A stretch of 64,000 nucleotides of DNA from Asticcacaulis solisilvae (lineage in GTDB: Bacteria; Pseudomonadota; Alphaproteobacteria; Caulobacterales; Caulobacteraceae), in assembly GCF_017875235.1 (NCBI RefSeq), contig NZ_JAGGMI010000016.1, positions 1 through 64,000 on the forward strand. Direction: 5' to 3'. Numbering within the stretch: the first letter of the stretch is position 1; each line of letters opens with the position of its first letter. The notes under the pieces were generated by a model that did no database searches, was not told where the DNA came from, and saw nothing but the letters and a program-made list of their open reading frames with translations. Position numbers and translations under genes: made by a program. This document shows, one piece after another, positions 5,921-14,367 of this stretch.

Positions 5921-7780
5921 ATGACGACGCGCCGCAGCTTTCTCCAATATGGTTCCGCCCTGCTGTGCGCCTGTGCCACGCCGGTGTCAGCCGCCGCCCG
6001 ACAAAGCCGCTTTCCGCGCTTCAAAGCTGAACTTGCACCGCCGAGCTACGCCCAGGTCGCACTAGGCCCCGGCCGGTTACAAACCCAGCTTTCGCATCAG
6101 CACAGCCTGTTCATGGGTATCGACAATGACCGCCTGCTGAAACCCTTCCGGGTCCGCGCAGGCCAGCCGGCGCCGGGTGCGGACATGGGTGGATGGTACG
6201 ATGCATCGGACGACTTCCACATCGATCCGAACGACTGGAGCACCGCTAATTGGCATGGCTACATTCCCGGCCACAGCTTTGGCCAGTACATGTCAGGCCT
6301 GGCGCGCGCCTATGCCATCACGGGTGATGCCGCCACCAAGGCCAAGGTGGCGTCCATGGTCGCCGACTACATCCCGACCATTTCGCCGAAGTTTTACGAC
6401 GGCTATCCCCTACCCGCCTATACCTACGACAAGGTCGTCATCGGCCTGATCGACGCCTGGCATCATTGCGGCGTGACTGAAGCCAAGACCGCGCTCGATC
6501 TCACCACCGACGCTGTCCTGCCCTACCTGCCCGAAAAGGCCCTGACGCGCGAGGAGCGCCGCGCCCGCCCCTATACCCAGGAAGCCGAGATCTGGGATGA
6601 GCCCTACACCCTGCCCGAGCACCTGTTCCAGGCGTGGAAGCTGGGCATGGGCGAGCGCTATAAGGACCTGGCCGTCCGCTACCTCCAGGACGAGGCCCTG
6701 TTCGATCCACTTGCAAAGGGCATCAGCCCGCTGAAGGGCAAACACGCCTACAGCCACGTCAACGCGCTGAATTCGGCGGTCGAGGCCTGGTACGTCACAG
6801 GCGACAAGAAGTATCTGAAAGCCGCCATCAACGGCTTCGACTTTGTCCTGCAACAGTCCTACGCCACCGGCGGCTGGGGGCCCAACGAGGAATTGGTCGC
6901 CGCGGACGACAGCGACACGCTCTACAATATGCTGACCGAGACGCATCGCACGTTCGAGACGCCGTGCGGCGCCTATGGCCACTTCAAGATCACCCGTTCG
7001 CTGCTGGGGATCACCAAGGACAGCCGCTACGGCGACAGCATGGAGCGCATGCTCTACAACACCGTGCTTGGCGCCAAGCCGACGACACAAGACGGCGACA
7101 CCTTCTACTATTCGGACTATAGCGACACCGCGACCAAGTTCTTCCGCGGCGAAAAGTGGCCGTGCTGCTCAGGCACCTTTATCCAAGTCGCTGCCGACTA
7201 TGGCATCAGCGCCTACCAGTTCGATGAGGACGACCTTTATATCAACCTCTACCTGGCCTCCGAACTGAAGGGACAGGCCGGTGGCAAGCCCTTCCGCCTC
7301 GTCCAGACGACCGAATATCCGCTGACCAATACCAGCCGGATCGTCATCACCGAGGCGGCTGGCACGGGCTTCAACGTCTTCCTGCGCATCCCCGCCTGGA
7401 GCGGCCCCGCGACGGCGGTCAGCATGAATGGCCAGCCGGTGTCGGGCAAGATCACGGCTGGCAAGTTCCTGAAGCTGGAGCGCACCTGGCAAACGGGCGA
7501 TGTCGTCGAAATCAGCTTCGATATGGGCCTGCGCCTGGAGCCGCTCAATGCCGCCCATCCGGACATGGTCGCCCTCATGACCGGGCCGCTGGCCCTCTTC
7601 CCGACACGCGCCACCGGCATCCCATCGGAAGCCCCAATGCCGGCGGCGGCCTGGCTGAAGGCGACCCGCAAAAGCCTGGAGGCCTGGAGCGTCTCAAGCC
7701 CCGACGGCGAGATCGTGCTGAAGCCCTTCATGGCCATTTCAGACGAGACCTATCGGCTCTACAGCCGGATCACGGTTTAG
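5921..7780 (+). CDS. GH127/GH146-type beta-L-arabinofuranosidase (DUF1680 family), exported
   Basis: This 619-aa enzyme probably releases L-arabinofuranose from arabinan or hydroxyproline-linked glycans. The N-terminus MTTRRSFLQYGSALLCACA is a twin-arginine signal. The catalytic domain is an (alpha/alpha)6 barrel: HVNALNSAVEAWYVTGDKKYL, TGGWGPNEE, ETPCGAYGHFK, and the Cys-rich motif WPCCSGTFIQ that carries the zinc-bound nucleophilic Cys in this family. The CCSGT form is closer to GH146-like members than to the CCPPN form; the assignment between the two families is inference. A C-terminal beta domain follows. The start ATG at 5921 has GGGAAG upstream. The gene ends in a 4-bp convergent overlap with the next gene. 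Confidence 0.85.
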   Translation: MTTRRSFLQYGSALLCACATPVSAAARQSRFPRFKAELAPPSYAQVALGPGRLQTQLSHQHSLFMGIDNDRLLKPFRVRAGQPAPGADMGGWYDASDDFHIDPNDWSTANWHGYIPGHSFGQYMSGLARAYAITGDAATKAKVASMVADYIPTISPKFYDGYPLPAYTYDKVVIGLIDAWHHCGVTEAKTALDLTTDAVLPYLPEKALTREERRARPYTQEAEIWDEPYTLPEHLFQAWKLGMGERYKDLAVRYLQDEALFDPLAKGISPLKGKHAYSHVNALNSAVEAWYVTGDKKYLKAAINGFDFVLQQSYATGGWGPNEELVAADDSDTLYNMLTETHRTFETPCGAYGHFKITRSLLGITKDSRYGDSMERMLYNTVLGAKPTTQDGDTFYYSDYSDTATKFFRGEKWPCCSGTFIQVAADYGISAYQFDEDDLYINLYLASELKGQAGGKPFRLVQTTEYPLTNTSRIVITEAAGTGFNVFLRIPAWSGPATAVSMNGQPVSGKITAGKFLKLERTWQTGDVVEISFDMGLRLEPLNAAHPDMVALMTGPLALFPTRATGIPSEAPMPAAAWLKATRKSLEAWSVSSPDGEIVLKPFMAISDETYRLYSRITV

Positions 7781-8223
7781 CCGTCGATAACGCGATAGGT
7801 GACGTGGACGCCATCCCACGACGGCTGAAACGCCCACATCTGGCCACCGTGCCTGCGAATAAACGCCTCCTCATCCGACAGCCAGCGCAGGCGCAGCCTG
7901 GCTTCGCCGTCAAAGCTGCCGATCATGCGCTCGCTGCCGAAACCACCGCTCACGTCGCGCAGGAGGACCAGTTGCCGGTCGTCGGCCGCCATGCACGAGA
8001 CGCGCACGATCTGCAGTTCGTGCGCGCCGCCGGGCGACGTCACAGCCGCGCCATTCCGGCTTTCGCACAAAGGTCCGGCGCCGTGGTCGTACTGCCAGTA
8101 GACCCACGAGATCAGGCCCAGAACCAGTCCGGCCAGGGCAAAGCCGCCATACCAGTACCAGTGATGGCGCTCCTTGGGGTGGGTATAGCCATGCGGAACA
8201 TGGTGCGGCTCTGCGCCGGACAT
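7777..8223 (-). CDS. Single-pass membrane protein of unknown function
   Basis: I do not recognise the family. After a His-rich cytoplasmic tail (HHVPHGYTHPKERHHWYWY) there is one transmembrane helix (about residues 28-45), then a 100-residue soluble domain with two Cys (PLCES, VSCMA) that could form a disulfide. The start at 8223 was preferred over the in-frame ATG at 8235 because GAGG lies 6 nt upstream of it. Gene length is 148 aa. Confidence 0.65.
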   Translation of the reverse strand: MSGAEPHHVPHGYTHPKERHHWYWYGGFALAGLVLGLISWVYWQYDHGAGPLCESRNGAAVTSPGGAHELQIVRVSCMAADDRQLVLLRDVSGGFGSERMIGSFDGEARLRLRWLSDEEAFIRRHGGQMWAFQPSWDGVHVTYRVIDG

Positions 8224-11612: not shown

Positions 11613-13763
<2,151 letters not shown>

Positions 13764-13771
13764 CGCTGTCA

Positions 13772-13857
13772 CTCCTCCCGCTCCTCCCTGTGCCGAAGGC
13801 ATGGGGAGGGGGACCGCACAACTGAGCGATAGCGAAGGCGATGCGGTGGTGGGGCCT
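13772..13857. repeat. Left inverted repeat of the DUF559 element
   Basis: This 86-nt arm matches the reverse complement of 14283-14367 in three identical blocks of 20, 19 and 17 nt separated by short variable stretches. It starts 8 bp after the thiC stop and ends about 50 bp before the DUF559 start. Confidence 0.85.
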
Positions 13858-13909
13858 ACCTCGGTGGGCCTCTTGCCTTTCCGCCACCCTAGGCTGTAGC
13901 CTTCCAAAT

Positions 13910-14284
13910 ATGGACGCCAAACCGAAAGTCAAACTGGCGCGCAATCTGCGACGCCAGATGTCTCCGCCTGAGGTTCGTCTCTGGCTCCGGCTACGCACGC
14001 GATCTGAAACCGGCTTCTCAATTAGGCGCCAGCATCCGATTGGGTCATTCGTGCTCGACTTCTATTGTCCGGAGGCTCTCCTCGCCATCGAAGTGGATGG
14101 CGCTCAACATACTGAGGACGAAGCAATAGCTTATGATGAAAAACGCGATGCCTGGCTGCTTACGAAAGGCATAGCGACGCTACGCATTCCTGCCGTCTAC
14201 ATCATGCAGGATGCCGACAGCGAAGCAGAAGGTGTGGTGGAGTTTATCAAAGAACGCATCGCGGCGTTGTCTCTACCGAGATAG
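13910..14284 (+). CDS. DUF559 / Vsr-like endonuclease-fold protein
   Basis: This 124-aa protein belongs to the DUF559 family (PF04480), related to very-short-patch repair and other PD-(D/E)XK nucleases. FVLDFYCPEALLAIEVDG supplies the Asp and the E-V-D catalytic core, and QHTEDEAIAYDEKRDAWL and the RIPAVYIMQD ending are family-typical. The start ATG at 13910 gives the usual short basic N-terminus; the frame is open upstream but runs into the left repeat. The stop codon lies inside the right inverted repeat. Function is unknown. It may process DNA at such repeats, which is speculation. Confidence 0.85.
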   Translation: MDAKPKVKLARNLRRQMSPPEVRLWLRLRTRSETGFSIRRQHPIGSFVLDFYCPEALLAIEVDGAQHTEDEAIAYDEKRDAWLLTKGIATLRIPAVYIMQDADSEAEGVVEFIKERIAALSLPR

Positions 14285-14367
14285 GCCCCACCACCGCATC
14301 TCATTCGCTTCGCTCAATCGTGCGGTCCCCCTCCCCATCGCTGCGCGACAGGGAGGAGCGGGAGGAG
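14283..14367. repeat. Right inverted repeat of the DUF559 element
   Basis: This 85-nt arm is complementary to 13772-13857. Its identical blocks read on the minus strand as CTCCTCCCGCTCCTCCCTGT, ATGGGGAGGGGGACCGCAC and ATGCGGTGGTGGGGCCT. It ends 2 bp before the stop of the convergent GFA gene. Confidence 0.85.

Follow-up and report, generated by a model that had tools for sequence, protein, structure and literature searches.

REP and REPIN sequences are short palindromes present in tens of copies, often as facing pairs, and the same repeats bracket the gene of RAYT (TnpA-REP), a relative of the HUH Y1 transposases that handles REPs as single strands. Other repeats, the triplex-forming BoxC/PIT sequences, have been known since the 1990s. 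These BoxC/PIT/TM sequences were classified as class II intrastrand-triplex motifs, with 3610 copies in 262 proteobacterial genomes and loops limited to 1–6 nt (Holder et al. 2015, PMC4666352). No mobility functions were found by these authors near the repeats, whose spread is left unexplained (PMC4666352).

Here we describe a unit of Asticcacaulis solisilvae in which a small gene of the DUF559 family stands between two structured arms, and which we propose, as the best explanation, to be the autonomous-type unit of a widespread class of dispersed repeats. The DNA analysed is a stretch of 64,000 nucleotides, hereafter the window. The unit occupies 596 bp of it in the order arm-DUF559-arm, with the following features:

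13772..13865, + strand: left arm, one copy of a palindromic repeat that is dispersed in the genome; order towards the gene: pyrimidine stem strand, purine stem strand, third strand
13781..13788, + strand: left stem, pyrimidine strand CTCCTCCC (direct reading)
13803..13812, + strand: left stem, purine strand GGGGAGGGGG (sequence reading)
13813..13844, + strand: second loop of the left arm, with its own hairpin ACCGCAC...GATGCG (direct reading)
13845..13854, + strand: left arm, putative third strand GGTGGTGGGG (direct reading; general pattern in DUF559 arm hairpins)
13910..14284, + strand: DUF559 nuclease gene, 124 aa, predicted Vsr / I-Bth0305I-like fold (Pfam, alignment, structure model)
14275..14367, - strand: right arm, which repeats the left arm in inverted orientation and overlaps the 3′ end of the gene (repeat search, BLAST)
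14286..14295, - strand: right arm, putative third strand (sequence reading)
14327..14336, - strand: right stem, purine strand
14351..14358, - strand: right stem, pyrimidine strand

The repeat search returned the arms as two blocks, 13772-13829/14310-14367 (58 nt, 88% complementary) and 13831-13865/14275-14309 (35 nt, 91% complementary), which joined make a pair of arms measuring 94 and 93 nt. An earlier sequence-only reading had announced inverted repeats of about 86 bp around the gene; these are slightly longer than given there, and they are real and far beyond chance, the gene-free flanks aligning locally with a score of 115, whereas none of 1000 shuffles that preserved dinucleotides scored above 29. 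Both arms are palindromic in themselves, each giving matches on the two strands, and the right arm overlaps the last positions of the gene (14275-14284). The ORF inside the arms matches PF04480 DUF559 (E 1.7e-24, 86.2 bits, Pfam gathering cut-off 20.6). It is the only one in the 596-bp unit, which carries no transposase gene, so that the small nuclease is indeed the sole content, as had been read. The convergent neighbours end at 13763 (thiC ORF) and 14370 (GFA ORF), in agreement with the 8 bp (thiC side) and 2 bp (GFA side) that had been noted as spare. Between positions 8000 and 22000, the arms match no Rfam family at gathering score; the only family found was the TPP riboswitch of thiC (11722-11837, 70.5 bits), located upstream of or within the annotated thiC start.

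Bracketing of DUF559 genes was scored by local alignment of the 350 bp upstream of the domain with the reverse complement of the 350 bp downstream. Genes scoring at least 40 were called bracketed, and intervals of equal geometry elsewhere in the same loci served as controls. The genome of the window has seven strong DUF559 genes (E below 1e-9), one of them broken. Inverted arms bracket every one of the seven, at distances of up to ~230 bp from the domain and with scores of 54-130, and these arms fall into several sequence types; two weak matches (L025, L026, E about 0.003) were left out. In the genus, 39 of 59 genes are bracketed against 0 of 1351 control intervals (60 of the listed same-genus matches were taken, and L103 was dropped as its right flank is absent). 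Two further sets were composed of best-scoring matches and are not a random draw: relatives, with 20 of 29 genes bracketed (controls 0/232), and the phylum, with 13 of 29 (controls 2/232). Loci L044 and L118 were dropped, and L050, L052, L054 and L056 of these sets are the same genes as L057-L060 of the genus set. Named genomes of several phyla gave 31 bracketed genes out of 66, Bacteroidota, Chloroflexota, Gemmatimonadota and others being represented, compared to 5 of 483 controls (5 of 71 loci were dropped). L213, L220, L235 and L236 were also dropped before counting in the analysis that covered these genomes and the Vsr genes. The frequent flanking of DUF559 homologues by such arms, which had been proposed as a check, is thus seen in the genus, in the phylum and in the named genomes, and the opposite outcome, which had been named as a refutation, did not occur.

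The bracketing is specific. Vsr genes used as control with 500-bp flanks were never bracketed (0/26, maximum score 29), compared to 38/57, 21/30 and 13/29 for DUF559 genes with equal 500-bp flanks. A substantial part of the family scores under 40, namely 20 of the 59 genus genes and 16 of the 29 phylum genes. DUF559 is matched by 43 plasmid records and by 3 of 50,697 phage records. Arms are absent at all four plasmid genes or fragments inspected (L206-L209), and plasmid DUF559 was set aside for comparing occupied with unoccupied sites.

The arms had been described as RNA or cruciform structures. They are structure-forming, and a hairpin plus a third strand fits them better than a plain RNA or cruciform fold, which the analysis of third-strand mirrors led us to replace. 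The architecture common to DUF559 arms is a pyrimidine stem strand, a purine stem strand and a third strand mirroring the latter, as in the example CCCTCTCCC-loop-GGGAGAGGG-loop-GGGTGAGGG; purine stem and third strand correspond in this way for GGGAGAGGG with GGGTGAGGG and for AAGGAGGGG with GGGGTGGTT (L289, L294). In the window, the third strand mirrors the purine stem at 9 of 10 positions, T opposite A being scored as a match. A mirror of the purine strand with a score of at least 0.8 is present on the gene side of the stem in 60% of 172 DUF559 arm hairpins, compared to 9% of 328 on the outer flank. Third strands also match the stem of their own arm better than they match equally A-rich stems of other families (n=94, Wilcoxon p 5e-12, an optimistic value since arm sequences are related to one another). 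In good matches, the base opposite A is A in 105 cases and T in 84, both being rewarded by the scoring. From its sequence, each arm can fold as a single strand into a hairpin whose purine strand would be covered by a third purine strand, that is, into a putative triplex.

The second loop of the window arm, from the stem end at 13812 to the third-strand start at 13845, measures ~32 nt and falls outside the published limit of 1-6 nt. Some of the other DUF559 arms satisfy the strict TM pattern, and the L018 arm of the same genome has TM stems and a third strand with a longer first loop. Where an arm stem has an internal mismatch, it is mostly T.G and at the same position (for example L064 and L078 and, by eye, the window arms). 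The mismatch cells comprise 19 T.G, 6 G.T, 6 C.A and 4 A.C, only 29 of 167 stems being mismatched there. The excess of T.G hints, at the level of sequence, at folding of the reading strand. It is of interest because Vsr recognises T:G mismatches and nicks there.

The search of the arms against their own and related genomes, which had also been proposed, revealed a dispersed family. By BLAST, the window unit has 102 matches in its own genome, and window-type arms occupy 49 distinct places (E up to 3.5e-8) in 39 clusters, the unit itself being one cluster. A joint query with two other arm types of this genome gave 36 copies in 29 clusters for the L023 type and 11 copies in 10 clusters for the L018 type. 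Tens of sites carry such arms without a nuclease gene. At 11 of 13 gene-less window-type places inspected, the arms are paired. Two layouts were found. In one, the stem is outside and the third strand inside, as around the gene, and a spacer replaces the gene (e.g. L002); in the other, the arms are inside-out and separated by 16 nt (L005, L006, L008, L015). The inside-out pairs may form a separate kind of element. Their spacers are similar, approximately TGATCGCGCTCTGTAT (L005:1575-1590, L006:1485-1500, L008:1572-1587, L015:1587-1602), and they look like the junction of a circularised unit.

To delimit the unit, we aligned 16 pairs of units, 3 of them syntenic with long shared flanks and 13 non-syntenic. 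In 8 of the 13, homology spans the whole unit and stops no more than about 5 bp from the outer end of each arm; these include L021, L023 and L024 of the window's genome, L090 versus L097, L100 and L101, and L066 versus L094. In four of the exceptions, homology already breaks off within one arm or both, and in L078/L093 it extends ~225 bp beyond an arm. The minimal unit arm-nuclease-arm that had been proposed is therefore supported, the majority of the pairs showing homology that stops at the arms.

Arms and nucleases change type together. Similarities of proteins and of arms are correlated (Mantel rho 0.36, n=81, permutation maximum 0.10; L321 was excluded from the protein alignment), also in the genus alone (rho 0.33, n=48, permutation maximum 0.21). 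Among non-syntenic pairs, arms match in 7 of 7 with protein similarity of at least 0.8 (about three independent groups) and in 1.4% of 2774 with protein similarity below 0.5; synteny was judged here on flanks 300-1500 bp off, so that these pairs may include diverged orthologues, and L090 and L095 proved to be the same site. Between L021 and L023, one arm is 98% identical over 54 nt and the other 81% over 62 nt even though synonymous sites are saturated (pS 0.79), which points to constraint on the arms or to their homogenisation.

Arms without a gene differ between syntenic loci. Arms of the L090 family are scattered through G002, G008, G012 and G013 (15-22 matches each, a number that includes flanks and another repeat of the query) and have one further place in G003; no arm matches are listed in the remaining genus genomes (E up to 1e-10). 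Units of the L090 type occur in G002, G003, G008 and G012, and G013 has a match to the unit. In G008, a gene-less arm pair lies directly before an ATG and is absent at the same site in G002, G003, G012 and G013. Two more gene-less pairs differ in this way (L087/L076, L096/L081). Other structured intergenic repeats, of the AGAGC type and similar, also vary at syntenic sites of the genus (L097:3990-4089, L077:4904-5162, L058:5216-5296). At the unit ends and sites inspected, which are few and have diverged flanks, no target duplication was seen.

For the gene-bearing unit, no clean insertion or excision was caught among the sites compared. The L090 site has the unit in G003, the unit in opposite orientation in G008 and G013 and a single 29-nt hairpin in G002 and G012, with 520-540 bp of other DNA beside the unit in G003 and G013. 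The hairpin of this ‘empty’ site might just as well be the remnant of a deletion, since loss of the DNA between direct repeats in the two arms would produce that hairpin; the direction of change is thus ambiguous. Downstream of thiC, a DUF559 gene is found within ~1.3 kb in 5 of 25 genus genomes (L152, L153, L166, L168 and the window), and L155 is a further partial match. These proteins are of different types, 71% to 47% identical to that of the window, and the region may be either a recurrent landing place or the seat of an old resident. GFA is missing from the ~1.5 kb after thiC in all 24 other genomes of the genus, so that the proposed alignment of empty and filled thiC-GFA sites finds no counterpart there.

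We scanned 299 phylum genomes for the strict TM pattern, and it is present in 45 of 80 genomes with a strong DUF559 match (E up to 1e-10) versus 16 of 219 without; these are raw counts that ignore kinship. The association persists when stratified, by family only (Mantel-Haenszel odds ratio 23, p 1e-10), and the reversed pattern used as control gave 1 match over all 299 genomes. When 29 DUF559 places and 14 TM places, picked by eye from match lists, were compared, a strict TM motif lay within 140 bp at 8 of the 29 DUF559 places, on both sides in 4. Some genomes rich in TM have no DUF559 match (G217 with 129 motifs, G133 with 53), perhaps because the nuclease was lost, because there is another partner or because the genome is incomplete. 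In family f13, 10 of 13 genomes have a strong DUF559 and none of the 13 a strict TM motif, and the DUF559 arms are of other sequence (L126, L134, L142). Window-arm matches (E up to 1e-6) are found in 19 of 25 genus genomes. G010 has three of them and no DUF559 match; G002, G009, G013, G022 and G024 have DUF559 and no window-arm match at this E value. Copies of the window arm therefore do not simply follow the nuclease.

We also looked at E. coli, whose ycjD gene has BoxC-type motifs on one side only; in MG1655, one BoxC/TM motif and another that is degenerate are located at its 3′ end (L147:7204-7243, 7396-7425). The fabI-ycjD-sapF stretch is at least 80% present in 3362 of 5426 E. coli genomes. 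Of the 15 rows listed below 80%, 14 match only to query position 912, ~40 bp before the BoxC-type motif. The locus was rejected as an empty site, the matches of ycjD-less genomes stopping short of the motif and not cleanly at it. Insertion of BoxC at tkt-ypfG and tusA-zntA (four sequences each) was likewise rejected, the differences being mixed with other repeats and a clean empty site absent.

The nuclease was modelled with 40 sequences at pLDDT 89 (48 from the single sequence). Its best matches among solved structures are 3hrl (VIA Z 14.3), an endonuclease-like protein that is itself a DUF559 structure and was also found by sequence, the catalytic domain of I-Bth0305I (3r3p, 12.9; Foldseek E 6e-4) and Vsr (1cw0, 10.9). 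Residues E21, D50, E61, D63, H67 and D76 are invariant in the 40 sequences, with a bias for D50, which falls within the search pattern FVLDFYCP. By its modelled fold and its conserved acidic residues and histidine, the protein belongs to the Vsr / EDxHD nuclease fold group, a kinship of fold that does not by itself show function; EDxHD is the name for Vsr-like homing endonucleases such as I-Bth0305I. The dN/dS ratio is 0.06-0.11 in the six pairs computable over the full domain (four pairs are saturated), which indicates purifying selection and a protein kept functional; L021/L024 stands outside this set, with 8 codons aligned, a value of 0.65 and a broken L024. The search for a Y1 transposase of RAYT type (PF01797, the sole transposase family looked for) gave 0 matches in the genome of the window, and RAYT was set aside as the mover there.

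Taken together, these results make it probable that DUF559, with its Vsr / I-Bth0305I fold, is a nuclease dedicated to the arm family around it, in a partnership like that of REP and RAYT with an unrelated enzyme. We infer that the repeats are moved by this nuclease and not by host recombination. The arms would fold on a transiently single strand, on the lagging strand or at a stalled fork. The nuclease might bind the hairpin and third strand and nick at the outer base of the hairpin, and the unit or a gene-less arm pair would then be excised or copied and either joined elsewhere or repaired into other copies, by analogy with the role presumed for RAYT on REP and REPIN. Such a partnership is the simplest account of the bracketing, the dispersal, the pairing of arms with nucleases and the gene-less derivatives; it leaves uncovered the armless DUF559 genes, the repeats of DUF559-free genomes and the mode of insertion. 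The recurrence of DUF559 together with triplex-type repeats in several phyla points to this nuclease as the partner that these little-understood repeats have so far lacked. A bolder reading is conceivable, and we advance it tentatively, with doubt prevailing over belief: DUF559 proteins would be the mobilising nucleases of multi-phylum elements with intrastrand-triplex ends, whose units and gene-less derivatives would include BoxC of E. coli, a folded single-strand intermediate being cut by a Vsr-like PD-(D/E)XK enzyme in a transposition free of transposase and recombinase.

The main rival is homing into existing repeats. The repeats would spread otherwise, and a DUF559 homing gene residing between facing repeats would cut gene-less copies and be copied in by arm-homologous repair. 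The resemblance to I-Bth0305I, the nearest fold after 3hrl to be that of a homing endonuclease, speaks for it, as do the unit, flipped unit and lone hairpin at the syntenic L090 site and the repeated presence of DUF559 after thiC. A flipped unit can nevertheless arise by recombination between arms, and homing explains neither the new gene-less pairs at sites where relatives have no repeat nor the joint change of arm family and nuclease type. We regard it as unlikely in place of the partnership, alongside which it may act. Less likely again, and rather improbable, is that structural or terminator-like intergenic repeats accumulate by host slippage and gene conversion and that DUF559 merely tolerates or favours such sites. 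Host recombination can homogenise copies, and both TM-rich genomes and window-type arms exist where DUF559 has no match; the specificity of bracketing compared to Vsr genes and to neighbouring intervals, with inverted pairs matched to each other, and the finding that the majority of non-syntenic pairs have their unit edge at the arms argue against it. The last reading, which we hold to be very improbable on its own, makes DUF559 a domesticated Vsr-like repair or defence nuclease whose arms regulate or insulate the gene. It would agree with weak matches of DUF559 to DpdF and to a methyl-directed nuclease and with the report of a Caulobacter study that cells lacking the ScmA methyltransferase need the DUF559 protein VsrA (CCNA_02930) to mount an SOS response (PMC12907096). 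It accounts neither for the same arms at tens of gene-less sites nor for the unit homology ending at the arms; a role of this kind may be additional to the others.

Returning to the partnership of arms and nuclease, multi-phylum bracketing makes DUF559 a concrete candidate partner for repeats of unexplained spread. The question becomes testable with a protein of 124 residues and an oligonucleotide of 40-90 nt, and an answer would give DUF559 a role. Should the nuclease move the repeats, this would be, to our knowledge, a mobile-element mechanism outside the known transposase classes, with a DNA triplex as recognition signal. A literature search by titles and beginnings of abstracts, covering few of the subscription journals, found no report linking DUF559 to these repeats among the papers listed.

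Compared with known systems, the gene-bearing unit and the gene-less pairs share the same kind of ends, like an autonomous insertion sequence and its MITEs; unlike these, the unit has no transposase, and no target duplication was seen. Vsr and the homing endonuclease I-Bth0305I are the closest solved folds besides 3hrl, and acidic residues and a histidine are likewise conserved in DUF559, whose gene differs from theirs in being bracketed by dispersed inverted repeats, with no intron or intein noticed. BoxC, which is the same as PIT and TM-ECO, resembles the DUF559 arms in its pyrimidine stem, purine stem and mirrored third strand (class II) and in its inverted pairs, and strict TM motifs are found beside some DUF559 genes. 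The window family departs from BoxC by its second loop of ~32 nt, which holds a hairpin, and DUF559 is here the associated gene, whereas the BoxC/PIT/TM paper reports no mobility gene for these repeats (PMC4666352). The likeness to REP and RAYT lies in dispersed short palindromes that bracket a dedicated nuclease gene; the difference lies in the enzyme, which is of PD-(D/E)XK Vsr-like and not HUH Y1 type, and in the arms, which carry a third purine strand.
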